Program-made: the position numbers and the translations under genes | In this document: positions 30,201 to 49,540 of the stretch, piece after piece | Layout of the letters: each line of letters starts with the position of its first letter | Position numbering within the stretch: position 1 is the stretch's first letter | Assembly (NCBI RefSeq): GCF_003330845.1 | Contig: NZ_CP026121.1 | Location: 620,001 to 684,000 of the forward strand | Direction: 5' to 3' | From: Streptomyces sp. Go-475 | Lineage (GTDB): Bacteria > Actinomycetota > Actinomycetes > Streptomycetales > Streptomycetaceae | Length of the DNA stretch: 64,000 nt | The notes under the pieces: model-generated | What the model was told of the DNA's origin: nothing | Databases searched by the model: none | What the model saw: only the letters and a program-made list of their open reading frames with translations

Positions 30201-32174
30201 GTGCTCGGGGCGCAGCGGCGCGAGCCGCTCCCCGTCCGACAGGGCGGCGGGGTCCAGATCCGCCAGGCGTTCGCGCAGGGCGGGGTCGTCGAGCAGGAGC
30301 GTCGGTGCCGCCGGGGCGGGGACCTTGTGCGCGGCGGCGGTGGAGGTCAGGACGAGCGCCGGGGCGGCGTCCTCGATCATCACGGCGAGGCGTTCGGCGG
30401 GGTAGCCGGTGTCCAGCGGGACGTAGGCGGCGCCCGCCTGGAGTGTCGCGAGCAGCGCCACGACCAGGTCCGGTCCCCGGCCGAGGGCCACGGCCACGCG
30501 TCGCTCCGGGCCGGCGCCGTGGGCGACCAGCAGGCGGGCCAGGCGGGCCGCGCGGGCGTGGAGTGCGGCGTAGCCGAGGGTGAGGTCGTCGAAGGTGAGC
30601 GCGGGTGCGTCGGGGGTGCGGGCGGCCTGTTCGGCGAGCAGGGCGGCCAGGGTGGTGACGGGGACCGGCCGGGCGGTGGTGTTCCACTCCGTCAGGACCT
30701 GCTGTTCCTCGGCCCCGGACATCAACGGCAGGCGTGACACGGGCTGTCCGGGGTCGGCCAGCCCGGCGGCGAGCAGCGTCTCCAGCCGGGCCAGCAGCCG
30801 GTCGACGGTCTCCGGGGTGAACAGGCCGCTGCGGTAGGTGGCCTCGATGCGCAGCCGCCCGCCGGTGAGGAAGGCCTCCAGGGACAGGTCGAACTGGGTG
30901 GTGTCGTTGTGGACGGTCTCCCACTCGGCGCTCACCCCGGGCAGTTCGGGCCCCTGGAGCCCCTGGGTGAGGAAGAGCAGCATGACGTCGAACCAGACGG
31001 CCCGGCCCGGGTGCCGCTCCGGCCGCAGCCGCTCCACCAGCAGGTCGAACGGCATGTCCTGGTGCGCGTACGCGTCGGTGCACAACGTGCGTACCCGCTC
31101 GACCAGTTCGGCGGTTCCGGGGTCGCCGTCGAGGTCGGCGCGCAGGGCGAGGGTGTTGCCGAAGTTGCCGATGAGCCGGTCGAGTCCGGGCAGGTCGCGG
31201 TTCATCACGGCCGAGCCGATGGGGATGTCGGTGGCTCCGGTGAGGCGGTGGAGCAGTGCGGCCAGGCCCGCGAGCAGCACCATGAACGGGGTCGCGCCCG
31301 TGGTGCGGGCGAAGGCGGTGAGCCGGTCGGTGACCTCGGGCGCGAAGGTGCGGAAGCGGCGGTCGCCGTGCGCGGTGGGCCGGGGCGTGCGGGGCGCGTC
31401 GGTGGGCAGGTCCAGGGGGCGGGGCGGCGGGACCAGGTGGGTGCGCCAGTGGTCGAGGTGGCCGGCCAGCCGTTCGTCGGTGAACGTGGTGCGCTGCCAG
31501 AGGGCGAAGTCGGCGTACTGCGCGGGCAGGGGTTCCAGCCCGGCGTCCGTTCCGGTGACGGCGGCCCGGTAGAGGGCGCTCAGGTCCCTGGAGAGGGCGT
31601 TGAAGGTGCCGCCGTCCCAGGCGATGTGGTGCACCGTCAGTACGAGGGTGTGGTCCTGGTCGGCGCGCCGGACGAGCAGGGCCCGCAGGGGGTGGTCGGC
31701 GGTGAGGTCGAAGGGGGTCGCGGAGGCGGCACGGGCCAGGGCGTCGGCGCGCCGGTCCCGCTCGTCCGCGGGGAGCCCGTGCAGGTCGGCCTCCTCGAAG
31801 ACCAACTCCGCGACGCAATCTATGACTTGGTGCGGATTTCCGTCGTCGGCCGTGGGGTACCGGGTGCGCAGCACCTCGTGCCGGGCGAGCAGCCCGGCCA
31901 GGGCGGCGCGCAGCGCGTCCGTGTCGAGGGGGCCGCGCAGCCGGATGGCCAGGCACACGTTGTAGGCCGGGCTGGCCGGGTCGAGCTGCTGGAGCAGCCA
32001 CATGCGGGACTGGGCGTACGACAGCGGCAGTCGGGCCGTGTCCGCGGGCCGGGGCGGGATCCGTTCGGCCCGGGCGGGGGTGTGGGCGAGGCCCGCGCTC
32101 TCCAGCCTGCGGCGCAGCAGTTCCCGCTTGCGTGCCGCGAGGTCGCCGGGCCGGTCCGCGTGGGTCTCGGTCAC
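24249..32174 (-). CDS. Dimodular NRPS: C-A(Ser)-T-C-A(fhOrn)-T-E
   Basis: 2641 residues. Module 1: LCL-type C (PLSYAQSRMWLLQQL; HHIAWDGG), A with pocket DVWHVSLVDK, a standard serine code, and carrier LGGHSLLAT near 1055. Module 2: LCL-type C (HHIATDGWS), A with pocket DINYWGGIGK, which I recall as the code of the coelichelin formyl-hydroxyornithine domain, and carrier LGGDSIVS near 2100. An epimerisation domain (HHLVVDGVSW near 2270; NYLGRF) follows, so fhOrn should be D. The last 30 residues are highly acidic (DSDDFENHSDDLDDNDGF) and may be a docking tail. The GTG start overlaps the previous stop as GTGA. The basic N-terminal helix RKRELLRRRLESAGL fits docking with the Cy-containing NRPS. 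Confidence 0.92.
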   Translation of the reverse strand: MTETHADRPGDLAARKRELLRRRLESAGLAHTPARAERIPPRPADTARLPLSYAQSRMWLLQQLDPASPAYNVCLAIRLRGPLDTDALRAALAGLLARHEVLRTRYPTADDGNPHQVIDCVAELVFEEADLHGLPADERDRRADALARAASATPFDLTADHPLRALLVRRADQDHTLVLTVHHIAWDGGTFNALSRDLSALYRAAVTGTDAGLEPLPAQYADFALWQRTTFTDERLAGHLDHWRTHLVPPPRPLDLPTDAPRTPRPTAHGDRRFRTFAPEVTDRLTAFARTTGATPFMVLLAGLAALLHRLTGATDIPIGSAVMNRDLPGLDRLIGNFGNTLALRADLDGDPGTAELVERVRTLCTDAYAHQDMPFDLLVERLRPERHPGRAVWFDVMLLFLTQGLQGPELPGVSAEWETVHNDTTQFDLSLEAFLTGGRLRIEATYRSGLFTPETVDRLLARLETLLAAGLADPGQPVSRLPLMSGAEEQQVLTEWNTTARPVPVTTLAALLAEQAARTPDAPALTFDDLTLGYAALHARAARLARLLVAHGAGPERRVAVALGRGPDLVVALLATLQAGAAYVPLDTGYPAERLAVMIEDAAPALVLTSTAAAHKVPAPAAPTLLLDDPALRERLADLDPAALSDGERLAPLRPEHPAYVIFTSGSTGRPKGVVVPHAAIVNRLLWMADTYRVGPGDRVLQKTPASFDVSVWEFFLPLVTGAALVLARPGGHRDPAHLAELIRQQRVTTAHFVPSMLRVFLDDPAAERARGVLRRIVCSGEALPADLAERCTRLLDGTELHNLYGPTEAAVDVTAWPCADGTSSASGSVPIGHPVWNTRTLVLDASLRPVPPGVPGELYLGGSQLARGYLGRPALTAGRFVADPYGPPGARLYRTGDIVRWTVHGALEFLGRADDQVKIRGFRVEPGETEAAATALPAVSQAAVTVRQDTHGDPHLVAYVVPHPGARPEPQRIRRDLADTLPGHQVPSAVVVLDALPLTPNGKLDRAALPDPDLSALTTADAPRTEAEATLCRLFADLLGLPSVGVHDEFFALGGHSLLATRLVARVRAELGVALPLRAVFDTPTAAALAPLLETPAQRRPPLLPARRPDPVPLSFAQARLWFLYRLEGPTPTYNIPTAVHLTGPLDPEALRAALQDVVDRHEALRTVFPDHDGVPRQEIRTDTAVPFETVTASADELDALLSEAAAHSFALDREIPVRATLYALGPGDHVLLLLVHHIATDGWSAEPLLRDLETAYTARLRGTPPAWPPLAVQYADHTLWQRDLLDEEYTAEEVRYWARRLDGLPEELQLPADRPRPPVPGYRAGAVDFTLDAATHRALRDLSAEAGGTVFMALQATLAVLLGRLGAGDDIPLGTPVAGRGDRVLDDLVGLFVNTLVLRTDVSGAPTFRALLARVREADVDAYAHQDLPFERLVDALGPTRSMGRHPLFQVMLAHQQAPAGRRDFAGLTLTDRRVPFYTAKTDLAFHVFERPDADGIDGSLVYSHDLYDPDSAREMTERFVRLAGELARHPDRPVAAADVLTPRERDLLLGEWNDTAHPMPATTLTALVEEQAARTPHLVAVEYGIPGGTALTYGELDARANGLARQLRSLGVGPERRVGIHLERSVEMVVGLLAVLKAGGAFVPLEPSWPARRIAEVCRGAALTAVLGRPGDDGLLGEEAPPVVEVALDGPTAENPRVRVDPEGLAYVIYTSGSTGVPKGAMIRHRAIAHRLLWQRGLLGFGTDDAALFKAPLGFDISINEIFLPLVNGGRVVIAEPGGERDVDYLLDTVERHRVTFTYLVSSMLDLLLELDGFARRAASLRHVWCGGEVLTPELFARFRAASEAVMYHGYGPAEATIGVSHVVYRTGAIRSAVSIGRPNSNTRLYVLDDRLQPVPVGVPGELYAGGVYLGRGYVGDPRRTAGHFVADPFGPPGERLYRTGDLVRWQRDGTLEFLGRADNQVKIRGMRVELEEIEAILEQHPGVRRGVVVIREDAPGVKQLAGYYLAAHDLGDLHGWLRDRLPDHMVPRTLTALDAFPLLPSGKVNRAGLPAPQSAVTAPVREPANARERQLCELFATVLGLEQVGVDAHFFELGGDSIVSIRLVTLARKAGIALSPRQVFQSPTPAGLAAAAEAARKPTATAADDPVGEVPLTPVMRWTAGPDGSFGGLAQAVLLVTPPGLTDDTATAVLQALLDRHAMLRARLAGDGTRLLVPAQGAVDAGELLTRAHGTVEEELSAAVERLDPRAGRMLQAVRFDTGRLLLVAHHLVVDGVSWRIITDDLAEAWQAVRAGAVPRPGRAGTSFRTWSGLLAEDARTPERMRELPYWEAVLDGASPLLEHAPELPGPVREQSLVLPDEITSPLLTTVPAAYRAAVPDVLLTGFALAAAVWRERRGDLADRSLLVGLEGHGREEDLAENVDLSATVGWFTTFHPVALDPGPVDLDEALSGGPAAGTALKRVKEQLRAAPDHGLGYGLLRHLNPDTAVELDKRPQPQIVFNYLGRFTASASGDEPWQLAPEAPMLHVPRDGGRTAASALEINTVAVEEDGGVRLHISASAPRAFLAPSGTRALLALWERALRGLARHTEDARAGGLTPSDLPLVALTQEDIEDFENAFEYDSDDFENHSDDLDDNDGF

Positions 32175-35100
32175 TGGTGTCCGCCTTTCAGCAGCCGTTC
32201 GAGGGAAGCGGTCCACAGCTCGCCCAGCCGCTCGATCTGCGCCTGGGTGAAGAGCCGTTCCGGCCAGTGCCAGCACACCGTGAGGACCGGGCCGCCTGGC
32301 TCCTTCGCCTCGTCGATCAACGCGTCGACGACGAGGGGGTAGGGGGCCGGCGCCCCGGGGTCGGCCCACGCGCCCAGGGCGCCGGTCTCGGGGGCGCTGG
32401 TGAACGCGGCGTCCTCCGCCTGCTCCCCGAGGCTCATGCGGCCCAGGTAGTTGACCGCGATCTGCGGCTCCGGGAGCGGGGCGAGGACGGGGGCGGTGTC
32501 CGGATTGAGGTGGCGCAGCAGGCCGTGGCCGATGCCCTTGTCGGGCAGGGCGGCGAGCTGGTCCCGGACGCGCCGCAGCTGCTGCGCGGGGGCCGCGTCG
32601 CCGGGATCGAGGCGGACCGGGAAGACGGTGGTGAACAGGCCGAGGGTGCCGGACAGGTCGGCGCCCGGCAGGAGTTGCTCCTCGCGGCCGTGTCCCTCCA
32701 GGGCGATCAGCAGGGAGTCGTCCGCGGTGGCCCGGCCGAGTTCGCGTCGCCATTCCGGCACGGCCAGGGACAGCGCGGTCAGCAGGACGTCCGGCACGGG
32801 GTGCGCGGTGAGGAGTGCGGTGAGGTCCGGGGCGAGCGTCGTCCAGTGGTGGCGCACGGTGGCGTGGGTGTCCCGGGCGGGGTCCAGCGGTCCGGCGCCG
32901 AGGGCCGGTTCCGGCCGGTCCGACACCGCTGTCCAATGGGCGAGTTCGGCCGTACGGCGTTCCGACACCGCCTCGGAGCGCAGTGCCCGGGCCCACTCCC
33001 GGAAGGTGGTGCCCGGCGGCGGGAGCGGTGTGCCGTGCCAGGCCGCGGCGAGATCGGCGGTGAGGACGCCCCAGGAGGCGGCGTCGGTGACCAGGTGGTG
33101 CAGGACGACCAGCAGCCGCCCCTCGCGGTCCGGCCCGGTGTCGAACCACAGGAACCGGGCCACCGCCCCGGCGGCGGGGTCGAGTTCGGCGGCCAGGTTC
33201 GCGAAGGCGCCGGGTACCAGGGTGCCGATCGTGGCGTGGTCCAGCCGTGCGGCGTCGGTGCGGCGTACGCGGTCGGCGGCGCGGGTCGTGCCCTGTGGTG
33301 CGGTCCGCAGGTGCCGGGTTCCGTCCTCGTCCCTGGCGAGTGTGGAGCGCAGCAGGTCGTGCCGGTCCAGCACCGCCTGGACCGCGCGGTGCAGCCCGTC
33401 GAGGTCCATGCCGGGCGGGGTGCGCAGGAAGCGGGCCTGGCTGAGCGCGCGGACGTGGCGGTCCTGGGCGACGAGCCGGGTGAGCATCGGGGTGAGGGGG
33501 ATGTCGCCGACGCCCGCGTCCGGGTCCGCCTCCCGGCGCCGGGCGGTACCGGCGGCCTCCGCGAGCGCGGCGACGGTGGGCCGCTCGAACACGTCGCGCG
33601 GCGAGAGGGCCAGCCCGGCCGCGCGGGCCCGGCCGACCAGCCGCATGGAGACGATGCTGTCGCCGCCGAGCGCGAAGAAACTGTCGTGCACGCCGACCGA
33701 GTCCACTCCGAGGACCTGTGCGAACAGCGCGGCGAGCCGTTCCTCGGCCGGGTTGCGCGGCGGCTGGGCGGCTGGCCCGGCGGTGCGGGAGGGGGCCGGG
33801 AGGGCGGCGGTGTCCAGCTTGCCGTTGAGGGTGAGGGGGAACGCGTCGACCGGGACGAACGCCGACGGCACCATGTAGTCGGGCAGGACGGCCGCCGCCG
33901 CCCGGCGCAGCAGCTCCGCCGTCTCCCCGGCGGGCGGAGCGGCCGGGGCCGTCACGACGTAGGCGACCAGGCGGCGGACGCCCGGGGTGTCCTCGCGGAC
34001 GACGACCGCGGCGCGTTCGACGAGTGCGTGGTCGAGCAGGACCGCCTCGATCTCGCCGGGTTCGATGCGGTAGCCCCGGATCTTGACCTGGTCGTCGATC
34101 CGTCCGAGGCATTCCACCAGGCCGTCCCGGGTCCAGCGGGCGATGTCGCCGGTGCGGTACATGCGTGTCCCGGGGCGGGTGGCGAACGGATCGGCGACGA
34201 AGCGGCTCGCGGTGGTCGCCGGCCGGCCCAGGTAGCCGCGGGCCAGTCCCTCGCCGGCGATGTACAGCTCGCCGTCGACGCCGGTCGGTACGGGGTTGAG
34301 GTGCCCGTCGAGGATGTACAGGGTGGCGCCCGCCACGGGGCGGCCGATCGCGGGCCGGTCGCTGAGGGCGAGGTCGCAGTCCGCGGAGTCGACGGTGCAC
34401 TCGGTGGGCCCGTACAGGTTGTGCGCGGCGAGTCCGTCCGTCTCGCGCAGGGTGCGCCACAGGTCGGGCGGTACGGCCTCGCCGCCGACACCGAGGACCT
34501 TCAGCCCGGCCCGCCAGTCGCCGCCGCGCGCGACGACCTCGGCGAGCAGGGACGGGGACAGCTCGATGAACTCGATGCGGTGCTCGGCGAGGAAGCCGCG
34601 CAGGGCGTCCGGGTCGCGGCGGACCTCCTCGGGCACCAGGTGCAGTTCGTGCCCGGCGAACATCCACAGCATGGGCTGCCAGGACGCGTCGAAGGCCGTC
34701 GGCCAGGCATGGCCCACGCGCAGGGGCCGGCCGCCGGCCGCCGCCGTGGCCGGGGTGTGCAGGGCGGCGTGGTGCGCGGCGAACAGGTTGACGATGGCCC
34801 GCTGCGGCACGACGACGGCCTTGGGGCGGCCGGTGGAGCCGGAGGTGTAGATGACGTACGCGGGGTGCTCGGGGAGCAGCGGCCCGCCGCGGTCGGTGTC
34901 CGTGAGGTCGGTGCCGTCCGCGTCCGCGAGGCGCTGCCGGGTGCCGGGGTCGTCGAGCAGCAGGACGGGGATGTCGCCGAGGGTGTCCGGCGCGGGCGCG
35001 GTGCCGGTGGTGGCGATCAGGGCGACGGGCCGGGCGTCAGCGAGCATCCCGGCGATCCGCTCCTCGGGCCAGGCGGGGTCGAGGGGCAGATAGGCCGCGC

Positions 35101-36718
35101 CCGCCTTCTGCACGGCGAGGAGCGCGGTGATCGTGTCGGGCGTGGGCGGCAGGGCGAGCGCGACGACCCGCTCCGGCCCGGCACCGGACGCGACGAGCAA
35201 CCGGGCCAGCCGGTTGGCCTCGGTGTTCAACTCGGCGAAGGTGAGGCGCTGTTCGCCGCCGACGACGGCCACCGCGTCCGGTGTCCGGGCGGCCTGCGCC
35301 TGGAGCACCTCGGGCAGCGTGGCGTACGGGGCGGGCAGCCGCTGCGCCGCGCCGCGCGCCAGCAGTTCGGCCCGCTCCTCGGGGGCGAGGGCGTCCAGCG
35401 CCGCCAGAGGTGTGCCGGGGGCCGCCACCATCGCGCGGACGAGCCGCTCGAACCGCCCGGCGAGCCGCTCCACCGTCGTCCGGTCGTAGCAGTCGGGCCG
35501 GAACTCGAAGACGACGCCGAGCCGCCGCTCGGCGAGCACGGCGAGGGTCAGCGGGTAGTGGGTGGCGCCGGAGCCCTTGACGTCGAGGATCCGCAGCCCG
35601 GCTGCCACCTCCGCCCGGGCCACCGCGTCCTGGTCGACCGGGTAGTTCTCGAAGACCAGCAGGGTGTCGAAGAGGTCGCCGGATCCGGCGAGGCGCTGGA
35701 TCTCGGTGAGGCCGAGGTACTGGTGGTCCATCAGCCGGGACTGCTCGTCCTGCACGCGGCGCAGGAAGACGGCGGCCGGCTCCCCGGGGGGTACGGACAC
35801 CCGCACGGGCACGGTGTTGATGAACAGGCCGATCATCGACTCCACGCCGGCGAGTCCGGCGGGGCGCCCGGCCACGGTCGCGCCGAACACCACGTCGTCC
35901 CTGCCGGTCAGCCGCGCCAGCAGCAGCGCCCACAGGCCCTGCACGACGGTGTTGACGGTGACGCCCAGGCCGCGGGCCGTGCGCTGCACGTCCGCGGTGA
36001 GTTCCTCGGACAGCCGCAGCGTGTGCAGTTCGGGCGGTACGGGGACCAGGCCGGCGGCCGAGGGGGCCAGCAGGGTCGGTGCCGCCCCGGACAGCGCCTG
36101 GCGCCAGGCCCGGCCGGAGACCTCCCGGTCGCGGCTCGCCAGCCAGGCGAGGAAGTCCCGGTACGGCCGTACGGCGGGCAGCGGGGCCGAGCGGCCGGGG
36201 GCGAGCTGGGCGGCGTAGAGCTGGAGCAGTTCCCGCACCAGCAGGGGCACGGACCAGCCGTCCAGCAGCAGGTGGTGGTTGGTGAGGACCAGCAGCCGGC
36301 GGTCGCCGCCCCGGTCGATCAGGGTCAGGCGCAGCAGCGGGGGGTCGGTGAGGTCGAAGCGGGCGGTGGCGTCGGCGGCGACGAGCCGCTCGGCCTCCGC
36401 CTCGTCGGCGGCGACGGCCTCCCGCCAGTCGACGGGGACCTGCTTGAGGACGACCTGCACGGGCTCGTCCATGTCGTCCTCGTGCAGGAAGGCGCTGCGC
36501 AGGTTGGCGTGCCGGGCGAACAGCTCCTCGGCGGCGGTGCGCAGCAGTTCGGGGCGGAGCGGGCCCTCGATCTCCACCAGGGACTGCATGGTGTAGACGT
36601 CCTGGGCGCCCTCGTCGAACAGGGCGTGGAACAGCAGGCCCTGTTGCAGCGGGGACAGCGGCAGGACGTCCTCGACCAGGGACCCGTCGTCCGCCGCGCC
36701 GGCGGGCTCTGTGCTCAT
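32171..36718 (-). CDS. NRPS: C-A(unresolved, Orn-like)-T-E
   Basis: 1515 residues. The N-terminal C domain begins EDVLPLSPLQQGLLFHALFD, a DCL signature, with HHLLLDGWS near 146, so its donor should end in a D residue. The A domain (TSGSTGRPKA near 623) has pocket DAQEGGLVDK read from FDASWQPML, IELSPSL, GVGGEAV and LYGPTECTVDS. I do not recognise this code; Glu at the 278 position suggests a basic side chain such as (hydroxy)ornithine or diaminobutyrate. A carrier (LGGDSIVS near 1016) and an epimerisation domain follow. The E domain's core motif is HHLVTDAASW, with Ala where Gly is usual, but the catalytic His and Asp remain. The ATG overlaps the previous stop (ATGA). Confidence 0.9.
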   Translation of the reverse strand: MSTEPAGAADDGSLVEDVLPLSPLQQGLLFHALFDEGAQDVYTMQSLVEIEGPLRPELLRTAAEELFARHANLRSAFLHEDDMDEPVQVVLKQVPVDWREAVAADEAEAERLVAADATARFDLTDPPLLRLTLIDRGGDRRLLVLTNHHLLLDGWSVPLLVRELLQLYAAQLAPGRSAPLPAVRPYRDFLAWLASRDREVSGRAWRQALSGAAPTLLAPSAAGLVPVPPELHTLRLSEELTADVQRTARGLGVTVNTVVQGLWALLLARLTGRDDVVFGATVAGRPAGLAGVESMIGLFINTVPVRVSVPPGEPAAVFLRRVQDEQSRLMDHQYLGLTEIQRLAGSGDLFDTLLVFENYPVDQDAVARAEVAAGLRILDVKGSGATHYPLTLAVLAERRLGVVFEFRPDCYDRTTVERLAGRFERLVRAMVAAPGTPLAALDALAPEERAELLARGAAQRLPAPYATLPEVLQAQAARTPDAVAVVGGEQRLTFAELNTEANRLARLLVASGAGPERVVALALPPTPDTITALLAVQKAGAAYLPLDPAWPEERIAGMLADARPVALIATTGTAPAPDTLGDIPVLLLDDPGTRQRLADADGTDLTDTDRGGPLLPEHPAYVIYTSGSTGRPKAVVVPQRAIVNLFAAHHAALHTPATAAAGGRPLRVGHAWPTAFDASWQPMLWMFAGHELHLVPEEVRRDPDALRGFLAEHRIEFIELSPSLLAEVVARGGDWRAGLKVLGVGGEAVPPDLWRTLRETDGLAAHNLYGPTECTVDSADCDLALSDRPAIGRPVAGATLYILDGHLNPVPTGVDGELYIAGEGLARGYLGRPATTASRFVADPFATRPGTRMYRTGDIARWTRDGLVECLGRIDDQVKIRGYRIEPGEIEAVLLDHALVERAAVVVREDTPGVRRLVAYVVTAPAAPPAGETAELLRRAAAAVLPDYMVPSAFVPVDAFPLTLNGKLDTAALPAPSRTAGPAAQPPRNPAEERLAALFAQVLGVDSVGVHDSFFALGGDSIVSMRLVGRARAAGLALSPRDVFERPTVAALAEAAGTARRREADPDAGVGDIPLTPMLTRLVAQDRHVRALSQARFLRTPPGMDLDGLHRAVQAVLDRHDLLRSTLARDEDGTRHLRTAPQGTTRAADRVRRTDAARLDHATIGTLVPGAFANLAAELDPAAGAVARFLWFDTGPDREGRLLVVLHHLVTDAASWGVLTADLAAAWHGTPLPPPGTTFREWARALRSEAVSERRTAELAHWTAVSDRPEPALGAGPLDPARDTHATVRHHWTTLAPDLTALLTAHPVPDVLLTALSLAVPEWRRELGRATADDSLLIALEGHGREEQLLPGADLSGTLGLFTTVFPVRLDPGDAAPAQQLRRVRDQLAALPDKGIGHGLLRHLNPDTAPVLAPLPEPQIAVNYLGRMSLGEQAEDAAFTSAPETGALGAWADPGAPAPYPLVVDALIDEAKEPGGPVLTVCWHWPERLFTQAQIERLGELWTASLERLLKGGHQ

Positions 36719-39700
36719 CGGCTCCTCCACCTCGCCTTGACGTTGTCGAGCTGCGACCGGCTGAGCGTCACCAGTGGCTCGGCGGTCGCCGAGAACTCCT
36801 CCTCCGGGGCGGTGCCGTCCGGCAGGGAGCGGGCGAGACCGGCCGGGGTGCGGTGGGTGAACACGTCCCGGGGCGAGAGTCCGAGTCCCGCCCTGCGGGC
36901 CCGGTCGGCCAGCCGGACCGAGACGATGCTGTCGCCGCCGAGGGCGAAGAAGTCGTCGTGGAGGCCGACGCGTTCGACTTCGAGGACCTCGGCGAACAGG
37001 GCGCACAGTGCCTTCTCCGGTTCGGTGCGCGGCGGGTCGAAGGTGCTCGCCCGCGTGAAGTCGGGGGCGGGCAGTGCGCGGCGGTCGAGCTTGCCGCTGG
37101 GGGTCAGCGGCAGCGCCTCCAGGACCACCACGGCGGCCGGCACGAGGTGGGCGGGCAGCCGCTCGGCGAGGGCGTGGCGCAGGCCGGCCGGTTCCGGGCG
37201 GCGGCCGGCACCGGTGTCCGGTTCGACGTACGCCACGAGCCGCCGGGGCGCCGTTCCGTCCTCCCGGGCCACGACCGCGGCCGCGCGCACACCGGGCAGG
37301 GCACGGGCCGCCGCCTCGATCTCGCCGGGTTCGACCCGGAAGCCGCGGATCTTGACCTGCTGGTCGGCCCTGCCCAGGAACTCGACCGTGCCGTCGGGGC
37401 GCAGCCGGGCCAGGTCGCCGGTGCGGTAGAGGCGGCTGCCCGGCGGCCCGAAGGGGTCGGCGACGAACCGTTCGGCGGTGCGGCCGGGTTGGTTCAGGTA
37501 GCCGCGGGCCAGCCCGTCCCCCGCGAGATACAGCTCCCCGACCGCTCCGGTGGGGGCCGGGCTCAGGAAGGGGTCGAGAACATGGACCCGGGTACCGGCG
37601 ATCGGCCGCCCGAGCGGGACGGTTCCCGCGGTTCGCCGCCGGGGCTCCGCGGGGTCCGCGTCCCGTCGGCCCGCCCGGCTTTCGTCGTCGGCGTGCACAT
37701 GGGCGAGGCTGTCGCCCGCCGCCTCCGAGCAGCCGTACAGGTTGACCAGGCGGGCCTTCGGCCAGCGGGCGGTGAGCTGGTGGGCCAGGTCGGTGGTGAG
37801 GGGTTCGCCGCTGGAGATCCAGGTGCGGACCGAGTCGAAGCTGCCGGGCGGGGCGGACTCGACGAGGGTGGTGTAGAGGCTGGGGACGGCGGTGAGCAGG
37901 GTGGCGCGGTGCCGGGAGGCCAGCGCGGCGAGGGCGGTGGGGTCGCCGGTCGTCCCGTCGTCGGCGAGGGCCACGGCCTCCCCCGCGACCAGCGCGCCGA
38001 GCAGTTCGGTCAGGCCGTCGATGAAGCTGATCGGGCTCTTGGCGACGCGCACGCCGGCCGGACCGTCCGTCAGGGTCCTGCCCCAGGCGAGCCGGTTGGC
38101 CAGGGCCCGCTGCGTGCCGAGCACGCCCTTGGGGCGGCCGGTGGAGCCGGAGGTGAAGACGACGTACGCGGGATGGTCGGGGGACAGCGGCGGGCGCGGT
38201 ACGGCGGTGGACGTCTCGCCGGGGTCGCAGACCGACTTCGGGTCGAGGGCGAGTCGCCGGGCGGTCTCCTGGTCGCTCACCACGAGCCGTGGTCGCGCGT
38301 CCGTCAGCATGAGGGCGATGCGTTCGGGCGGGTAGGACGGGTCGACCGGCATGCAGGCGGCCCCTGCCTTGAGGGTGGCCAGCAGCGCGGTGACGAGGTC
38401 CGGGCCGCGGGGCAGGGCGACGGCCACGACGGACTCGGGCCCGGCGCCGCGCGCGAGCAGGGCGGCGGCCAACCCGTCGGCGGCGGCGTCCAATTGGGCG
38501 AAGGTGAGGGTCGTGTCGCCATGGTGGACGGCGGTGGCCAGCGGCGTGCGCGCGGCCTGTTCTTCGAAGAGGTCGCGGACGGCGGTGTGCCGCTGGCCCG
38601 GAGTGGCGGCGCGGCGCTCGTCGTACGAGGCGGTGTGCCACTGGTCCGGAGCGGCGGCGCGGCGCTCGTCGTACGAGGCGGTGTGCCACTGGTCCGGAGC
38701 AGCGGCGCGGCGCTCGTCGTACGAGGCGGTGTGCCGCTGGCCCGGAGTGGCGGCGCGGCGCTCGTCGTACGAGGCGGTGTGCCACTGGCCCGGAGCGGCG
38801 GCGCGGCGCTCGTCGTACGAGGCGGTGTGCCACTGGCCCGGAGCAGCGGCGCGGCGCTCGTCGTACGAGGCGGTGTGCCACTGGTCCGGAGCAGCGGCGC
38901 GGCGCTCGTCGTACGAGGCGGTGTGCCGCTGGTCCGGAGCGGCGGCGCGGCGCTCGTCGTACGAGGCGGTGTGCCGCTGGCCCGGAGCGGCGGCGCGGCG
39001 CTCGTCGTACGAGGCGGTGTGCCACTGGTCCGGAGCGGCGGCGCGGCGCTCGTCGTACGAGGCGGTGTGCCGCTGGCCCGGAGCGGCGGCGCGGCGCTCG
39101 TCGTGCGGGGCCGTGTCCAGCCGTCCCACCAGTCGGTCGGGTTCCTCCGTGAACGCCCGTATCAGCCGGTGCAACGCGGCCGCGATGCCGGTCACCGTCG
39201 CGTGGTCGAGGGCCGTCGGCTGGTGGCTGAAGGTCAGGGTGAGCCGGTCGCCGGGCAGGGCGGTGAGGGTGAGCGGGTAGTGGGTGGCGTCGCGGACCGA
39301 CACCTCGGTCATGCGGGGGCCGTCGGGCCCGAGGGCGCGGACGATGCCCTCGTCGTCGATGGGGTAGCTCTCGAAGACCAGCAGGGTGTCGAAGAGGAGG
39401 CCCTGCCCGGTGGCCCGCTGGACGCCGGCGAGCCCGAGGTGCTGGTGGCCCAGCAGGGCCGCCTGCTCGGACTGGACGCGCCTCAGGAGGTCGGCGAGCG
39501 GCTCGGCGGGGCGTAACCGCACCCGGACCGGCAGGGTGTTGATGAACAGTCCGACCATCGACTCGATGCCGGGGACGTCGGCGTCGCGGCCGGAGACGGT
39601 GGCGCCGAGGACGACGTCCAGCCGGCCGGTGTGCCGGGCGAGGAGCACCGCCCACAGTCCCTGGAGCACCGTGCTGACGGTCACCCCGTTGGCGCGGGCG

Positions 39701-40425
39701 GTGGCGGTGAGGGCCGTCGTCTCCCGCTCGGAGAGTTCCACGACGTGCCGCCCGGGCTGCCCGGCGGGGAGGTCCCGTGCCTCGGGGGCGATGAGGGAGG
39801 GTTCGTCGAGGCCGTCCAGGGCGGCCCGCCAGGCCTGTTCGGCGGCGGCGCGGTCCTGGCGGGACAGCCAGGCGAGGTAGTCGCGGTAGGGCCGGACCGG
39901 GGGCAGGGCGGCCGGGTCGCCGCCCGAGGTGTAGAGCCGGAAGAGCTCGCGGACCAGCACGGGCGCGGACCAGCCGTCCCACAGGAGGTGGTGCGAGGAG
40001 ATCAGCAGCCGGTGGTCCCGGTCCCCGAACGCCACCAGCCGGACGCGCAGCAGCGGGGGGCGGGCGAGGTCGAAGCGGGTTTCGCGGTCCCGGGCGAGCA
40101 GGTCCTCGAACGCGGTCTGCCGCTCGGCCGGCGGCAGGCCGGTCAGGTCGGTGGCGCGCCAGGGCGTGCGGATGCCGCCGGCGATGACCTGCACCCGCCG
40201 GCCCGACCGCTGGGTGCGGAACGCGGCCCGCAGGTTGGCGTGCCGGGCCAGGAGGGCGTCGGCGGCGGTGCGCAACCGACCCTGGTCCAGCGACCCTTCG
40301 AGTCGGATGACCAGCTGTCCGGTGTAGACGTCCCGGGCGTGCTCGTCGTACAGGGCGTGGAAGACCATCCCCTCCTGCGTCGGCGACAGGGGGAGGACGT
40401 CCTCCACGGCCGGCCGGGGCGCCAT
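36715..40425 (-). CDS. NRPS: C-A(beta-Ala)-T with repeat-expanded linker
   Basis: 1236 residues. A DCL-type C domain (EDVLPLSPTQEGMVFHALYD; HHLLWDGWS near 145) is followed by eleven 16-residue repeats (about 441-616), then an A domain (TSGSTGRPKG near 757) and carrier (LGGDSIVS near 1162). There is no thioesterase or E domain. The pocket reads IDTTISLGDK: the usual Asp235 is missing and Asp sits at 236, as in beta-alanine domains (VDxVISLADK), which fits the aspartate decarboxylase two genes upstream. Domain logic makes this the last module. Codon 304 (39514-39516) is TTA. Its ATG overlaps the MbtH stop by one base (TGATG). Confidence 0.92.
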   Translation of the reverse strand: MAPRPAVEDVLPLSPTQEGMVFHALYDEHARDVYTGQLVIRLEGSLDQGRLRTAADALLARHANLRAAFRTQRSGRRVQVIAGGIRTPWRATDLTGLPPAERQTAFEDLLARDRETRFDLARPPLLRVRLVAFGDRDHRLLISSHHLLWDGWSAPVLVRELFRLYTSGGDPAALPPVRPYRDYLAWLSRQDRAAAEQAWRAALDGLDEPSLIAPEARDLPAGQPGRHVVELSERETTALTATARANGVTVSTVLQGLWAVLLARHTGRLDVVLGATVSGRDADVPGIESMVGLFINTLPVRVRLRPAEPLADLLRRVQSEQAALLGHQHLGLAGVQRATGQGLLFDTLLVFESYPIDDEGIVRALGPDGPRMTEVSVRDATHYPLTLTALPGDRLTLTFSHQPTALDHATVTGIAAALHRLIRAFTEEPDRLVGRLDTAPHDERRAAAPGQRHTASYDERRAAAPDQWHTASYDERRAAAPGQRHTASYDERRAAAPDQRHTASYDERRAAAPDQWHTASYDERRAAAPGQWHTASYDERRAAAPGQWHTASYDERRAATPGQRHTASYDERRAAAPDQWHTASYDERRAAAPDQWHTASYDERRAATPGQRHTAVRDLFEEQAARTPLATAVHHGDTTLTFAQLDAAADGLAAALLARGAGPESVVAVALPRGPDLVTALLATLKAGAACMPVDPSYPPERIALMLTDARPRLVVSDQETARRLALDPKSVCDPGETSTAVPRPPLSPDHPAYVVFTSGSTGRPKGVLGTQRALANRLAWGRTLTDGPAGVRVAKSPISFIDGLTELLGALVAGEAVALADDGTTGDPTALAALASRHRATLLTAVPSLYTTLVESAPPGSFDSVRTWISSGEPLTTDLAHQLTARWPKARLVNLYGCSEAAGDSLAHVHADDESRAGRRDADPAEPRRRTAGTVPLGRPIAGTRVHVLDPFLSPAPTGAVGELYLAGDGLARGYLNQPGRTAERFVADPFGPPGSRLYRTGDLARLRPDGTVEFLGRADQQVKIRGFRVEPGEIEAAARALPGVRAAAVVAREDGTAPRRLVAYVEPDTGAGRRPEPAGLRHALAERLPAHLVPAAVVVLEALPLTPSGKLDRRALPAPDFTRASTFDPPRTEPEKALCALFAEVLEVERVGLHDDFFALGGDSIVSVRLADRARRAGLGLSPRDVFTHRTPAGLARSLPDGTAPEEEFSATAEPLVTLSRSQLDNVKARWRSR
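38578..39105 (-). repeat. Eleven 48-bp in-frame tandem repeats in the NRPS C-A linker
   Basis: Eleven head-to-tail copies of a 48-bp unit encode YDERRAAAPDQWHTAS with small variations (D/G before Q, W/R after it, AAA/AAT). The unit corresponds to the normal C-A linker stretch, whose family form is roughly DERxxLLxxWNxTA, and the last copy runs straight into RDLFEEQAARTP, the canonical A-domain start. The array therefore lengthens a flexible linker by some 160 residues without breaking the frame. Confidence 0.97.
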
Positions 40426-40643
40426 CAGTCGCCGGCTCCGCGCATGGCCTCGGCCAGGCTGCGCGGGCGCATGTCCGTCCAGTTCCGCTCGATGTGCTCC
40501 AGGCAGGCGGCCCTGGTGTCCGGGCCGTGCACGCTCTCCCAGCCGGCCGGTACGGGCGCGAAGTCGGGCCACAGGGAGTACTGGCCCTCGTCGTTCACCA
40601 GGACGCGGAAGACGCCGCTGTCGTCGTCGAACGGGTTGGCCAT
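40425..40643 (-). CDS. MbtH-like NRPS accessory protein
   Basis: 72 residues with the family signature [19 protein letters not shown], then [14 protein letters not shown]. MbtH proteins bind adenylation domains and are needed for their folding or activity. The gene lies between the decarboxylase (3 bp upstream) and the first NRPS (one-base overlap), so it is made together with the enzymes it serves. Confidence 0.96.
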
Positions 40644-40646
40644 GGC

Positions 40647-41078
40647 TCAGTTCCTCTCCTGCTGGGTGAAGGTTCCCGGGTACTGGTCCGGCGCCCCGGG
40701 CACCGGCTCGGCCGGGTCCGCGCCGAGGGCGAGGATCCGGTTGGCCTTGTCGACGTGGACGACCCGGGGCCGGTGGGTGGCGCGTTCCGATTCGTCGAGG
40801 ACGGCGAACGACATGACGATCACGAGGTGGCCGGGGTGGACGAGGTGGGCGGCGGCCCCGTTGACGCCGATGACGCCGGTGCCGCGCGCGCCGGTGATGG
40901 CGTAGGTGGTGAGCCGGGCGCCGTTGTCGATGTCGACCACGTGGACCTGCTCGCCCTCGGTGATGTCGGCGGCGTCCATGAGGTCCTGATCGATCGTCAG
41001 GGACCCTACGTAGTGCAGATCGGCCTGGGTGACGGTGGCTCGGTGGATCTTGCCGTTGAGCAAGGTGCGCTGCACCAT
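40647..41078 (-). CDS. panD: Aspartate 1-decarboxylase, cluster copy (PanD-like)
   Basis: 143 residues of the pyruvoyl-dependent PanD family. The self-cleavage site is Gly25-Ser26 in [36 protein letters not shown] and HPGHLVIVM complete the barrel. It converts L-aspartate to beta-alanine. Its place as first gene of the NRPS operon, with a near-perfect iron box upstream, indicates a dedicated beta-alanine supply for the NRPS with the beta-Ala-type pocket rather than a role in pantothenate synthesis. It has a slightly long C-terminal tail ([19 protein letters not shown]). Confidence 0.93.
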
Positions 41079-41145: not shown

Positions 41146-41958
41146 CTACGCGGAACAGTTGCGGAAGAACTCCAGGAGCACGCGGTTCACTTCGTCCGGG
41201 CGCTCCAGATAGCCGTAGTGGCCGCAGCCCTTGATCTCCTGGTAGAGGGCGCCGGGGACGGCCTCGGCGACCTCACGGCTCAGACGGGGCGGCAGGACGA
41301 GGTCGTCCGCGAAGCCGATCACCAGGCAGGGCACGTCGATCGCCCGGTAGGCGTCGAGCCGCCCCTCGGAGACCTCCAGGTCGAGCTGGGCCCTGACACC
41401 CGGCCCGGCGGGCTCCGGCGACAGCTCGAAGAGCTCCAGCCAGTCCCGGACCCGCTGTTCGTCGTCAAGGGTGGCGGGCGAGAGGTTCCGCACGGCCCGC
41501 ACCCAGGCCGCGTAGGCAGGGGGCAGCTCCACCCCGCTGTCGTACAGGGCGCGTTCGGCCGCGGCGGTGGCGGCGCGCAGGGCGTCGGTCCTCCCTCGGG
41601 TGGCCATCAGCACGCCCTGCCGCACGAGCCGGGGGCGGCGCAGCATCAGCTCCTGGACGACGTACGCCCCCATGGAGACGCCGACGACGCGGCAGGGGGC
41701 GAGGCCGAGGTGCTCGATGAGACCCGCGGTGTCGGCCACGAGGTCGTCGACGGTGAAGCCCCCGGGGCACTCGTCGCTCGGCGGGACGCCCCGGTTGTCG
41801 AAGGTGACCACGCGGTGTCCGGCCTCGACCAGGGCGGGCACCTGGTGGAGGTGCCAGGCGCGCCCCCGGGCGCCCTGGCCCATGACCAGGAGCACGGGCT
41901 CGCCGTGACCGGTGTCGTCGTAGTGGATCCGGACTCCGTCGATGGTCGTGCTCGGCAT
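41146..41958 (-). CDS. Stand-alone alpha/beta hydrolase, candidate release thioesterase
   Basis: 270 residues with an alpha/beta-hydrolase fold: oxyanion region LLVMGQGARG, nucleophile elbow GVSMGAYV, acid in IGFADDLVLPP and histidine in GCGHYGYLERPDE. No NRPS in the cluster has a thioesterase domain, so this enzyme is the best candidate for releasing the finished peptide from the last carrier; hydrolysis of the ferric siderophore after uptake is the alternative. It sits 22 bp downstream of the exporter gene in the same operon as salicylate synthase. The ATG at 41958 has GAGGAGGG upstream. Confidence 0.82.
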   Translation of the reverse strand: MPSTTIDGVRIHYDDTGHGEPVLLVMGQGARGRAWHLHQVPALVEAGHRVVTFDNRGVPPSDECPGGFTVDDLVADTAGLIEHLGLAPCRVVGVSMGAYVVQELMLRRPRLVRQGVLMATRGRTDALRAATAAAERALYDSGVELPPAYAAWVRAVRNLSPATLDDEQRVRDWLELFELSPEPAGPGVRAQLDLEVSEGRLDAYRAIDVPCLVIGFADDLVLPPRLSREVAEAVPGALYQEIKGCGHYGYLERPDEVNRVLLEFFRNCSA

Positions 41959-41980: not shown

Positions 41981-43270
41981 TCAGTCGGCGGCGGGTGACG
42001 TCTCGGCGGGCGCCGCGCGTCCGTCACCGGCGGGCGGCCCCTGGAGGGTGGCCTTGCGCAGCCCCGGCAGGACGAGGGCGACCGCCGCCACTCCGGCCAG
42101 GCACACCACTCCGCCGACGACGGCGGCGCCGGCCGAGGAGCCGAGCGCCCGGGCCACCAGGCCGGCCTCCACATTGCCGACGGAGGGGCCGGCGGTGGCC
42201 TGGGCGAGCCAGAGGCTGCCGACCCGGCCCTGGAGACGGTCCGGCGTGTAGTGCTGGAGCAGGGCCCGGCGCAGAATCTCGGAGACGGTGTCGCCGAGGC
42301 CCGCCAGGGCCAGGAAGACCAGCGCGCTCCACAGGCTCGGGCTCAGGCCGAAGCAAGTGATCGCCAGGCCCCACAGCGCGACCGCGCCGATCAGGGCGCG
42401 TCCGGTGTGGTGGATCCGGCCTGTCCAGCCGCTGGCCAGGGCCCCGCAGAACGAGCCGACGGCGGGGGCGGTGTAGAGGAGGCCGACGGTGGAGGGGCCG
42501 CCGCCGAAGTGCTCGGTGCCGAGTTCCGGGAACAGCGCGTACGGCATGGCGAAGACCACGGCGCACACGTCGATCAGCAGCAGCCCGGCGACGACCTGGT
42601 TGCCCCGCAGGAAGCGCAGCCCCTCCCCCATGGCCTTCAGCGGGTGCTGTGGCTCCCCGGCCCCCTCGGGCGCGAGGCGGGGCAGCGGGGCGAGCAGGGC
42701 GAGACCCACGACGTAGATGACGGCGTCGGCCGCGAAGCACAGCGCGACGCCCGGCCCGGCCGCGATGACGCCCGCGAGGGAGGGCCCGGCCATGGCGCCG
42801 AGCTGGGCGGTGAGGGTCATCAGCGCCCCGGCTGCGGCGAGTTGGCCCGGCGCGACCAGGGCCGGGGCGGCGGCCATCAGGGCGGGTCCGCCGAGACCAC
42901 TGGCGCCGCCCGCGAGGACGGCGGCAACGAACACGAACCACAACTGCGGGTCGGGCAGGGCCGCGTTCACCGCCAGGCCGGTGATCACCACGGCGGTCGC
43001 GGCCCGGGTGACGAGCACGATCCGGCGCCGGTCGACCCGGTCGGCGAGCACCCCGCCCGCGACCAGCCCGACCAGCAGCGACAGGCCCAACGACAGGCTC
43101 ATCAGACCGACTTGGACCGACGAGCCGGTCAGTTCGTAGACCTGGATGCTGGCCGCGACCGAGGTGAGGTGCGTGCCCAGCATGGAGATCGCCTGGGTGG
43201 CGAACAGCAGCCGGAAGTGCCTGCTCGCTCTCAGGGGGGTGACATCGACGACGACTTCTCCCAGTCGCAC
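41981..43270 (-). CDS. MFS siderophore exporter (EntS-like)
   Basis: 429 residues with about twelve membrane helices. The N-terminal FRLLFATQAISMLGTHLTSVAASIQVYELTGSS and the GVLADRVDRRRIVL loop between helices 2 and 3 are the EntS/MFS-3 pattern of enterobactin and related exporters. It should pump the finished siderophore out of the cell. The GTG at 43270 lies 8 bp after the salicylate synthase stop and uses GAGGAG as ribosome site, so the two are co-transcribed under iron control. Confidence 0.88.
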   Translation of the reverse strand: MRLGEVVVDVTPLRASRHFRLLFATQAISMLGTHLTSVAASIQVYELTGSSVQVGLMSLSLGLSLLVGLVAGGVLADRVDRRRIVLVTRAATAVVITGLAVNAALPDPQLWFVFVAAVLAGGASGLGGPALMAAAPALVAPGQLAAAGALMTLTAQLGAMAGPSLAGVIAAGPGVALCFAADAVIYVVGLALLAPLPRLAPEGAGEPQHPLKAMGEGLRFLRGNQVVAGLLLIDVCAVVFAMPYALFPELGTEHFGGGPSTVGLLYTAPAVGSFCGALASGWTGRIHHTGRALIGAVALWGLAITCFGLSPSLWSALVFLALAGLGDTVSEILRRALLQHYTPDRLQGRVGSLWLAQATAGPSVGNVEAGLVARALGSSAGAAVVGGVVCLAGVAAVALVLPGLRKATLQGPPAGDGRAAPAETSPAAD

Positions 43271-43278
43271 CTTCGCAC

Positions 43279-44622
43279 CTAACTCCTCAGGGACGGCGCG
43301 GCGAGCGGCGCCGGTTGCGCGGGGACGACGTAGGGGGCGACGCTGCGGAGTTTCTCGCAGGTCTCCTCCAGCTCCCGGGCGGGCGTCGACCCGGCGAGGA
43401 TACCGGCGCCGGCCCGCAGCCAGGTGCGGCCGTCCTCCTCGAAGAGGCTGCGCAGGACCAGGGCGGCGTCGAGCGAGCCGTCGCTGCCCGCCATGAGGGC
43501 CGCGCCGCTGTAGATGCCGCGCGGCTCCTCCTCCAGCCGGGCGATGCAGTCGTACGCCGGTGCCTTGGGGATGCCGGAGGCGGTGACGGCCGGGAAGACG
43601 GCGCGCAGCACGTCCCAGGCGGTGGTGTTCTCGGCGAGCAGTCCGTGCACGCTGGAGCCGAGGTGCTGGACGCTGCCGCGCCGGCGCACGCTCAGCAGGT
43701 CGCGCACGGAGACGGTGCCCGGGCGGCACACGGTGGCCATCTCCTCCTCCGCCAGTTTCACGGAGAGCACGTGCTCGGAGATCTCCTTGGGGTCGGCGAG
43801 GAGTTCGGCGCGCAGCCGTTCGTCCTCCTGCTCGCCGAGGCCCCGGGCGCGGGTGCCGGCGAGCGGCTGGGTGAGGGCCCGGCCGTCCGCGCCGACCTCG
43901 GCGACGGTCTCGGGGCTGAAGCCGACGACCCGGCGTCCGCCGAGGTTCATCAGGTAGGAGCGGGCGGGGGTGTTGTGGGACCTGCCGTGCACGTAGGTGG
44001 CGGTGAAGTCGACCGGGTACGGCACCGGGACGGTCCGGGAGAGGATGACTTTCTGGAGTTCACCGGCCCGTATCTCCTCGATCGCGCGGGCGACGAGGCC
44101 GGGGTAGGTGCCGGCGGTGTCCGCCACGTCGATCGGCCGGGCCTCGACGGTGGTCCGGGGAACGGGTTCGGCCAGCAGCCGGAGTAACGCCTCCAGCGTC
44201 TCCGGGTCGGTGCTGCGCACCTCGGCCTCGCCCTGACGGAGCCTCACCTCGCTGTGCGGGACGACGAGATGGAGCAACCGCGCGTCCCCGGCCCGGTCGG
44301 GGCGGCCGGCGTTCAGGTGCGCGAACTCGTAGGCCATCCAGCCGAAGGCGTGCCAGCCCTCGACGGCCATCCGGTCGAGCTGTTCCTGGACTTGGCGCAG
44401 GGGGTGCGGTCCGAGCGGGACCGCGGCGTCCTCGGAGAGCCAGCGGCGACGGACCTCGGAGCGGTCGACCACGACCTCACCGAGCGCGTCTCCGGCGAAC
44501 CACCACTCGCCTTCCCTCTCGTAGACCACGTACTGGTCGAACAGTTCCGACTCGGCCAGCCTGGCGGCCAGCAGGACGGGGTCTCCCGGCAGTTCCGTCC
44601 GCGCGCTCCGGTACCGCAGCAA
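43279..44622 (-). CDS. Salicylate synthase (MbtI/Irp9/YbtS type)
   Basis: 447 residues of the chorismate-utilising enzyme family. Visible are AGELQKVILSRTV, SYLMNLGGRRVVGFSPETVAEV, TQPLAGTRARG, DPKEISEHVLSVKLAEEE, VQHLGSSVHGLL, FPAVTASGIPKAPA and GIYSGAALMAG. MbtI-type enzymes turn chorismate into salicylate in one protein, so no separate pyruvate lyase is needed; none is present. It supplies the aryl cap of the siderophore. An iron box lies 17 bp upstream. Codon 146 (44185-44187) is TTA, so translation is probably bldA-dependent. Confidence 0.93.
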   Translation of the reverse strand: MLRYRSARTELPGDPVLLAARLAESELFDQYVVYEREGEWWFAGDALGEVVVDRSEVRRRWLSEDAAVPLGPHPLRQVQEQLDRMAVEGWHAFGWMAYEFAHLNAGRPDRAGDARLLHLVVPHSEVRLRQGEAEVRSTDPETLEALLRLLAEPVPRTTVEARPIDVADTAGTYPGLVARAIEEIRAGELQKVILSRTVPVPYPVDFTATYVHGRSHNTPARSYLMNLGGRRVVGFSPETVAEVGADGRALTQPLAGTRARGLGEQEDERLRAELLADPKEISEHVLSVKLAEEEMATVCRPGTVSVRDLLSVRRRGSVQHLGSSVHGLLAENTTAWDVLRAVFPAVTASGIPKAPAYDCIARLEEEPRGIYSGAALMAGSDGSLDAALVLRSLFEEDGRTWLRAGAGILAGSTPARELEETCEKLRSVAPYVVPAQPAPLAAPSLRS

Positions 44623-49437: not shown

Positions 49438-49540
49438 CGACGCCCGGCTGAGCGCCCCCCGATGCCCGGCTGAGCGCCCGCCGATCGCCCGGCTGACCGC
49501 CCCACGACGCCCGGCTGACCGCCCCTCGACGCCCGGCTAG
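49438..49540. repeat. Five imperfect 22-23-bp tandem repeats
   Basis: The core GCCCGGCTG(A) recurs with starts at 49442, 49464, 49487, 49509 and 49531, in units close to CGACGCCCGGCTGAGCGCCC. The last unit contains the stop codon of the membrane-protein gene on the minus strand, so the array lies in that gene's 3' trailer. It is not a recognised terminator. Confidence 0.8.

Follow-up and report, generated by a model that had tools for sequence, protein, structure and literature searches.

An eleven-unit in-frame repeat array in the condensation–adenylation linker of a CahD-like nonribosomal peptide synthetase from Streptomyces

The linker between the condensation (C) and adenylation (A) domains of a CahD-like nonribosomal peptide synthetase (NRPS) is lengthened, in the window (the whole 64,000-nucleotide stretch analysed here), by eleven near-identical 48-bp units. 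The array is real and rare. The explanation that we favour, with a probability of about 0.7, is that it is a recent coding minisatellite which is tolerated and close to neutral, with the C-A platform retained and the rest of the array looped out. By this explanation, a single linker unit would have been doubled in an ancestor shared by this species and Streptomyces olindensis, and the pair would have grown to eleven in this lineage, presumably by slippage or unequal exchange; because growth occurs in steps of 48 bp, the reading frame is kept. The product would be a charge-balanced, unstructured loop, in which the C-A linker begins with the first unit, as a short predicted helix, and the last unit leads into the A domain, while the units between them loop out from a C-A platform that is otherwise normal. 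The module would then be expected to keep working, so that the expansion would be tolerated and close to neutral.

The array, its host module and the surrounding cluster

The dominant array of the window, as detected by Tandem Repeats Finder, has a 48-bp unit in 11.2 copies (38581-39116, 95% matches, 0% indels, score 946), and the highest score obtained in 100 codon shuffles of the CahD-like gene is 87. Read in frame, the eleven units occupy 38578..39105 on the minus strand, corresponding to residues 441-616 of the 1236-residue protein, and each encodes 16 residues with the consensus YDERRAAAPGQWHTAS; the ten added copies account for 160 residues. The sequence-only reading had placed eleven in-frame 48-bp units at exactly these coordinates, in the C-A linker of an NRPS and with about 160 added residues, and the unit table, the Pfam domain limits and the residue count bear this out. 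The units lie head to tail and differ from their consensus at 0-5 of 48 bases. Internal variation is confined to four sites (unit positions 21, 22, 29 and 34; one synonymous, three nonsynonymous), and the only other differences lie at the outer edges of units 1 and 11. For positions 29 and 34, each of the four possible combinations of variants is represented, a pattern that suggests recurrent mutation or exchange among units. The encoded segment is hydrophilic and balanced in charge (27 K+R against 27 D+E, GRAVY -1.53). An RNA structure was also considered; one part of the array, read on the coding strand, gives a better fold than its shuffles (z -3.97), and this value is given no weight because shuffling destroys the periodicity of any repeat. 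Elsewhere in the window, a 22-bp direct repeat in 4.5 copies (49438-49538) lies between two convergent predicted genes.

The host gene (36715..40425, minus strand) encodes a C-A-PCP module, which translation, Pfam matches and comparison with the cluster described in PMC4757757 point to as a terminal β-alanine module, the specificity being a putative one. The four Pfam domains are present in order and above their cut-offs, all on the minus strand: Condensation (residues 8-445, 39091..40404, with the active-site motif SHHLLWDG), AMP-binding, the adenylation core (residues 620-977, 37495..38568), AMP-binding_C, the adenylation C-terminal subdomain (residues 1035-1112, 37090..37323), and PP-binding, the peptidyl carrier domain (residues 1139-1199, 36829..37011, with an LGGDSI motif). 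Since the Condensation match ends at residue 445 and the AMP-binding match starts at residue 620, the array sits in the C-A linker. Residues H145, H146, D150 and G151 of the C domain and T758, S759, G760 and K1112 of the A domain are invariant across 21 aligned rows. The A-domain code, read by eye with a putative GrsA numbering, is I D T T I S L G D K, and would resemble codes for β-alanine. This reading of the code agrees with the adjacent panD gene. No thioesterase domain is found by Pfam in this module.

Judged from domain content and order, the genes around this module are arranged as PMC4757757 describes for the cahuitamycin cluster; the literature on cluster identity comprises section 10 of that paper and part of PMC12305651. 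The CahA- to CahD-like NRPSs agree in Pfam content and order with the published description: a CahA-like carrier-cyclisation-A-PCP protein (20766..24230), a CahB-like C-A-PCP-C-A-PCP-E protein (24249..32174) and a CahC-like C-A-PCP-E protein (32171..36730), all on the minus strand, the cyclisation and epimerisation (E) domains being assigned from the position and score of Condensation matches. On the same strand follow genes for a CahE-like MbtH-like protein (40425..40643, PF03621), a CahF-like aspartate 1-decarboxylase, PanD, for β-alanine supply (40647..41078, TIGR00223 above its cut-off), a CahG-like α/β hydrolase (41146..41958), whose NCBIfam matches are below their cut-offs and whose proposed role in chain release is taken from PMC4757757, a CahH-like EntS-like exporter (41981..43270, NF007792 above its cut-off) and a CahI-like salicylate synthase (43279..44622, TIGR03494 above its cut-off). 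A CahJ-like aryl-AMP ligase lies on the plus strand (44753..46384; TIGR02275 with 718.7 bits against a cut-off of 723.55), and a lysine/ornithine N-monooxygenase domain (CahMO-like, 17428..18465, minus strand, PF13434) is the candidate ornithine N-hydroxylase. Siderophore-type ABC permeases, with matches below the NCBIfam cut-offs, are also present in the neighbourhood. In PMC4757757, CahD is the terminal β-alanine module without a thioesterase, and the hydrolase is proposed to act in release in trans. The module of the window would be expected to remain functional as the terminal β-alanine module of a cahuitamycin-type siderophore pathway.

The length of the linker is exceptional. At 179 residues it is the longest of 319 distinct C-A linkers (median 26, 99th percentile about 35), a background which is not a random sample, because most of its loci were found by similarity to the CahD-like protein; the four other C-A linkers within the window have 26 residues each. 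When the five CahD genes of the clade of the window are removed, only 1 of the 314 remaining linkers exceeds 34 residues, namely the 64-residue linker of Saccharothrix obliqua (L098).

Orthologues, history and related inserts

A pattern-based scan of GTDB-representative genomes, in which one of the six patterns (DQWHTASY) derives from the array itself, provides 21 CahD loci (L035-L055) from the best 80 of 200 relatives. Fifteen further CahD loci, at 76-81% identity, come from a DNA search of 392 Streptomyces genomes that include the source genome; 11 of the 15 have linkers identical to those already found and 4 are new, such that 25 distinct relatives are available. None of these 25 (21 from the best 80 of 200 relatives, 4 from the 392 Streptomyces genomes) has the array, and a function of the array that is conserved in orthologues is rejected on this count. 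Of the orthologues listed, that of S. olindensis (L035) is nearest to the window, at 94% identity over 1053 columns, and the tree groups the two with support of 100/99. The S. olindensis linker has two units, which are identical to each other at 36 of 48 bases. Both species have TCG as the codon at the junction, and in both unit 1 starts with CAC and the last unit ends with GTC, which suggests one duplication in their common ancestor, and two copies probably became eleven in the lineage of the window. It is also conceivable from these sequences that the two-unit state of S. olindensis, whose genome is a draft, could be due to contraction or to assembly collapse. Copy number therefore differs between lineages, with 11 units in the window, 2 in S. 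olindensis and, by eye, a repeated unit in 0 of the 24 other distinct orthologues, 21 of all the loci compared being from the best 80 of 200 relatives.

The mean dS between units is 0.042, as compared with 0.104 (C) and 0.140 (A-PCP) between the window species and S. olindensis, and the array has thus grown or been homogenised after the split of the two species; by this measure it is young or homogenised. The unit also resembles an ordinary linker motif: in the L055 orthologue, SEGERRALDGLAAATA is the stretch with which DERRAAAPGQRHTA can be aligned by eye. These results uphold the sequence-only reading, which had taken the unit for a duplicated linker motif and the array for a recent one, and the comparison with orthologues that it had proposed shows the array to be lineage-specific among the 25 distinct relatives. 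Inside the array, dN/dS is about 1.1 over four variable sites, and with only four such sites this value is compatible with weak constraint. The flanking regions have dN/dS values of 0.18 (C) and 0.29 (A-PCP) against S. olindensis. Judged by these rates, the enzyme is under constraint and none is detectable on the unit sequence.

The possibility that the array belongs to a mobile or shared repeat family was also examined by a DNA search for the array, in which one or two candidates were scored per genome, and it is rejected: among 392 Streptomyces genomes, the source genome included, the array is found only in its own. Some match to it at E <= 0.001 occurs in 211 of the 392 genomes, the best one outside its own genome having an E value of 2e-12 and 69% identity. 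Among 22 further matching loci, inspected with about 1.5 kb of flank each, a C domain occurs in none and an A domain in one (L032), where the frame is that of a PKS and itself carries arrays.

CahD orthologues carry inserts repeatedly, and at more than one place. An alignment of 24 rows (the window, L035-L055 from the best 80 of 200 relatives, and two duplicate copies of those) has C-A linker inserts of 158 residues in the window, 14 in S. olindensis and 15 in a metagenome-assembled genome (MAG RH52_bin.036, L043). In the A-domain loop before VPLGRPI, the inserts are of 188 residues in S. lomondensis (L047), 98 in L043, 22 in L053 and 18 each in the window (residues 914-931, 37633..37686, minus strand), S. 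olindensis and XY006. Other CahD loops have inserts of 30 residues in L055 and of up to 26 in L037. The insert of S. lomondensis coincides with a 60-bp array of about 8 copies (L047:12302-12848), whose 20-residue unit resembles the flanking TAGTVPLGRPIAGT by eye; that of L043 is rich in repeats (L043:5686-5787 and around) and stands beside the 15-residue linker insert of the same gene. The 30-residue insert in an A-domain loop of L055 (L055:10001-13303) is rich in SG, and the 22-residue insert of L053 (L053:10001-13261) is of a GGGKRDD type. Considering the likeness of the S. lomondensis unit to its flank and of the window unit to an ordinary linker, each array seems to have been copied from its own edge.

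CahC, the neighbouring gene, has no insert of more than 24 residues in 20 aligned rows and none of more than 9 in the five-species clade (L039 and L046 being left out as partial). CahC of MAG Bin2.31 (L039:16355-16469) has, in its PCP-E linker, an 18-bp unit in 6.4 copies that encodes AELAER repeats of six residues, and the idea that CahD is the only gene affected is rejected on this ground. An array filter applied to 145 NRPS ORFs retains six arrays, two in CahD orthologues, one in the CahC of L039 and none in a C-A linker. The S. lomondensis array scores best with a period of 180 bp and is for this reason missed by the filter on copy number; when it is restored, CahD accounts for 3 of 7 arrays over the 145 ORFs; CahD may thus be affected more often than its share, the counts being small. 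In the genome of the window itself, a 3091-residue PKS frame (L134:365-9637; C1:8122364-8131636, minus strand) has arrays at residues 652-736, 1311-1414 and 2743-2779, which lie between A and KS, between KS and AT and between ACP and TE, and a 2586-residue NRPS frame has a PEPKPEPKPE array between an aminotransferase and a luciferase-like domain (L135:8588-8703). Seven arrays in 152 kb of megasynthase regions (among them one in L140 whose unit is not a multiple of 3 and one in L138 whose frame may not be a gene) compare with five in 220 kb of other regions of this genome, counts too few to claim a higher density in megasynthases. Taken together, the inserts and arrays in CahD, in the CahC of L039 and in PKS and NRPS genes of the genome of the window support in-frame minisatellite growth in exposed, tolerant chain segments. 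Recurrent growth of this kind, roughly neutral, is the best reading of the wider pattern; against slippage that is neutral alone stands the observation that inserts look commoner in CahD than in CahC, though the CahC of L039 has an array.

Predicted structure and alternative explanations

The AlphaFold2 model calculated with 111 diverse C-A rows has a mean pLDDT of 84.4 and a pTM of 0.83, with 814 of 1116 residues at pLDDT >= 90. It replaces a poor first model from 21 orthologue rows (mean pLDDT 51, array about 26). The sole stretch below pLDDT 50 comprises model residues 450-605 (protein residues 454-609), and values in the interior of the array are 26-38, such low values being expected wherever the alignment offers no homologues for a segment. 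A short helix is predicted in the first unit (residues 441-447), and the remainder of the array is almost without secondary structure. Over C and A, the model superposes on EntF (5JA1, 899 residues, 3.4 Å), PchE (7EMY, 913 residues, 3.0 Å) and SrfA-C (2VSQ, 849 residues, 5.0 Å); the rmsd values for the whole C-A chain are 3.0-5.0 Å by VIA-align and 5-11 Å by Foldseek. The model thus predicts that the C-A platform is normal and that the array forms a disordered loop; AlphaFold2 may, however, have restored the platform from learnt structures. A folded tandem repeat domain, such as a solenoid or a coiled coil, finds no support in AlphaFold2, the low-confidence stretch being still compatible with a fold.

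The tolerance of the C-A joint has been explored with type S NRPSs, in which coiled coils of 41 and 42 residues are placed in the C-A linker. According to part of PMC10443035, one such split enzyme yields about 30% of the wild-type product once ten native residues are taken out, and 106% when these ten residues are kept together with a short GS stretch; its authors state that structural flexibility had been underestimated. The review PMC8150014, in the part used here, describes the conformation of the C-A didomain as stable and flexibility within a module as limited. By analogy, both accounts would fit a loop that leaves the interface alone. The sequence-only reading had started from a linker that is normally short and structurally fixed and had suggested that the array could decouple the C and A domains. 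The 106% figure speaks against the former premise, and given the predicted platform and the tolerated engineered insert, decoupling is not the first expectation.

It is nevertheless to be considered that a 160-residue loop at the C-A joint damages the enzyme by uncoupling its domains, the gene then being on its way to loss. The linker is far beyond the usual range (179 residues against a median of 26), and the limited flexibility described in the consulted part of PMC8150014 also points in this direction; against this, the frame is open, the conserved C and A positions are kept, flanking dN/dS is 0.18-0.29, the neighbouring biosynthetic genes are present, the platform is predicted to be normal, and the portion of PMC10443035 cited above reports a tolerated insert, such that damage is improbable. 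An assembly error, with a true array shorter or longer than eleven units, is very unlikely: 536 bp of repeats with 95% identity are difficult for short reads, but the copy number is that of a genome assembled as one 8.57-Mb contig, two units are present in the sister species S. olindensis, and several variant combinations follow each other across the units in an order without a simple period, which is not what a looped assembly would make.

The array could also be an adaptive tether, whose length tunes the meeting of C, A and the carrier protein or recruits the trans-acting release hydrolase, such that copy number adjusts siderophore output. The recurrence of inserts at the C-A linker and the A-domain loop of CahD orthologues, together with the shortness of those in the 20 CahC rows, agrees with this proposal, as does a terminal module without a thioesterase domain. 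It is opposed by the distribution of the array, which is in 0 of the 25 other orthologues (21 from the best 80 of 200 relatives) and is thus dispensable for the pathway, by the unit sequence, on which no constraint is detectable, and by the various CahD inserts, which share neither sequence nor place. The array in the CahC of L039 indicates in addition that CahD is not special in kind, and slightly lowers the odds. An adaptive tether is therefore unlikely, and a tuning function of the array is possible but unsupported. The more general proposal, that CahD-type terminal modules bear disordered tethers of variable copy number, grown independently at two loops, which tune the coupling of condensation, adenylation and release in trans, with mutation of repeat length adjusting siderophore output, is highly improbable.

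For NRPS engineering it is important how much rigidity the C-A joint requires, and what seems to be a natural series in closely related modules, with no array, two units or eleven units, would make this question directly testable. The data also suggest that minisatellites can grow in the interdomain segments of megasynthases, and they carry the warning that short-read assemblies may collapse such repeats.

Comparison with known systems

The literature searched, which was covered mostly at the level of titles and the beginnings of abstracts and includes parts of PMC10212144, PMC10443035, PMC8362031, PMC8150014 and PMC4487206, contains no repeat array in an NRPS C-A linker. To this extent the claim of the sequence-only reading that no such NRPS linker had been described holds; it does not extend to long low-complexity linkers as such, of which there are two natural examples. 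That of Saccharothrix obliqua (L098, 64 residues) is lengthened by low-complexity sequence, like the linker of the window, and that of a Streptomyces locus (L177), which is outside the 319-linker count, spans a slice of 111 residues as compared with 51-60 in the CahD orthologues compared alongside. Both are shorter than the linker of the window and, by eye, without near-identical tandem copies. The A-domain loop inserts of S. lomondensis and of MAG RH52_bin.036 share with the array the CahD gene and in-frame repeat growth, and differ from it in the loop and in the unit.

The host module shares with CahD of Streptomyces gandocaensis (KU363800) the C, A and T domains and the lack of a thioesterase, and the cluster shares with the cahuitamycin cluster the clustering of genes for the MbtH-like protein, aspartate decarboxylase, hydrolase, EntS-like protein and salicylate formation (PMC4757757). 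The likeness to CahD of KU363800 is by published description, and the array is absent in the 25 distinct orthologues compared, 21 of which are from the best 80 of 200 relatives. Megasynthase genes with internal repetition are known from PMC4487206, the part used here reporting stretches of 650-1000 bp that are repeated within PKS and NRPS genes; these examples are pairs of long, distant, near-identical stretches, whereas the window has an array of short units in a linker. The closest counterpart at the C-A joint itself is provided by the type S NRPSs with synthetic zippers (PMC8362031 and PMC10443035, each in part), where a long foreign segment is present at this joint and the enzyme works. 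Those are engineered systems of two chains with structured coiled coils of 41-42 residues, and the array of the window is a natural, single-chain, 160-residue repeat that is predicted to be disordered.
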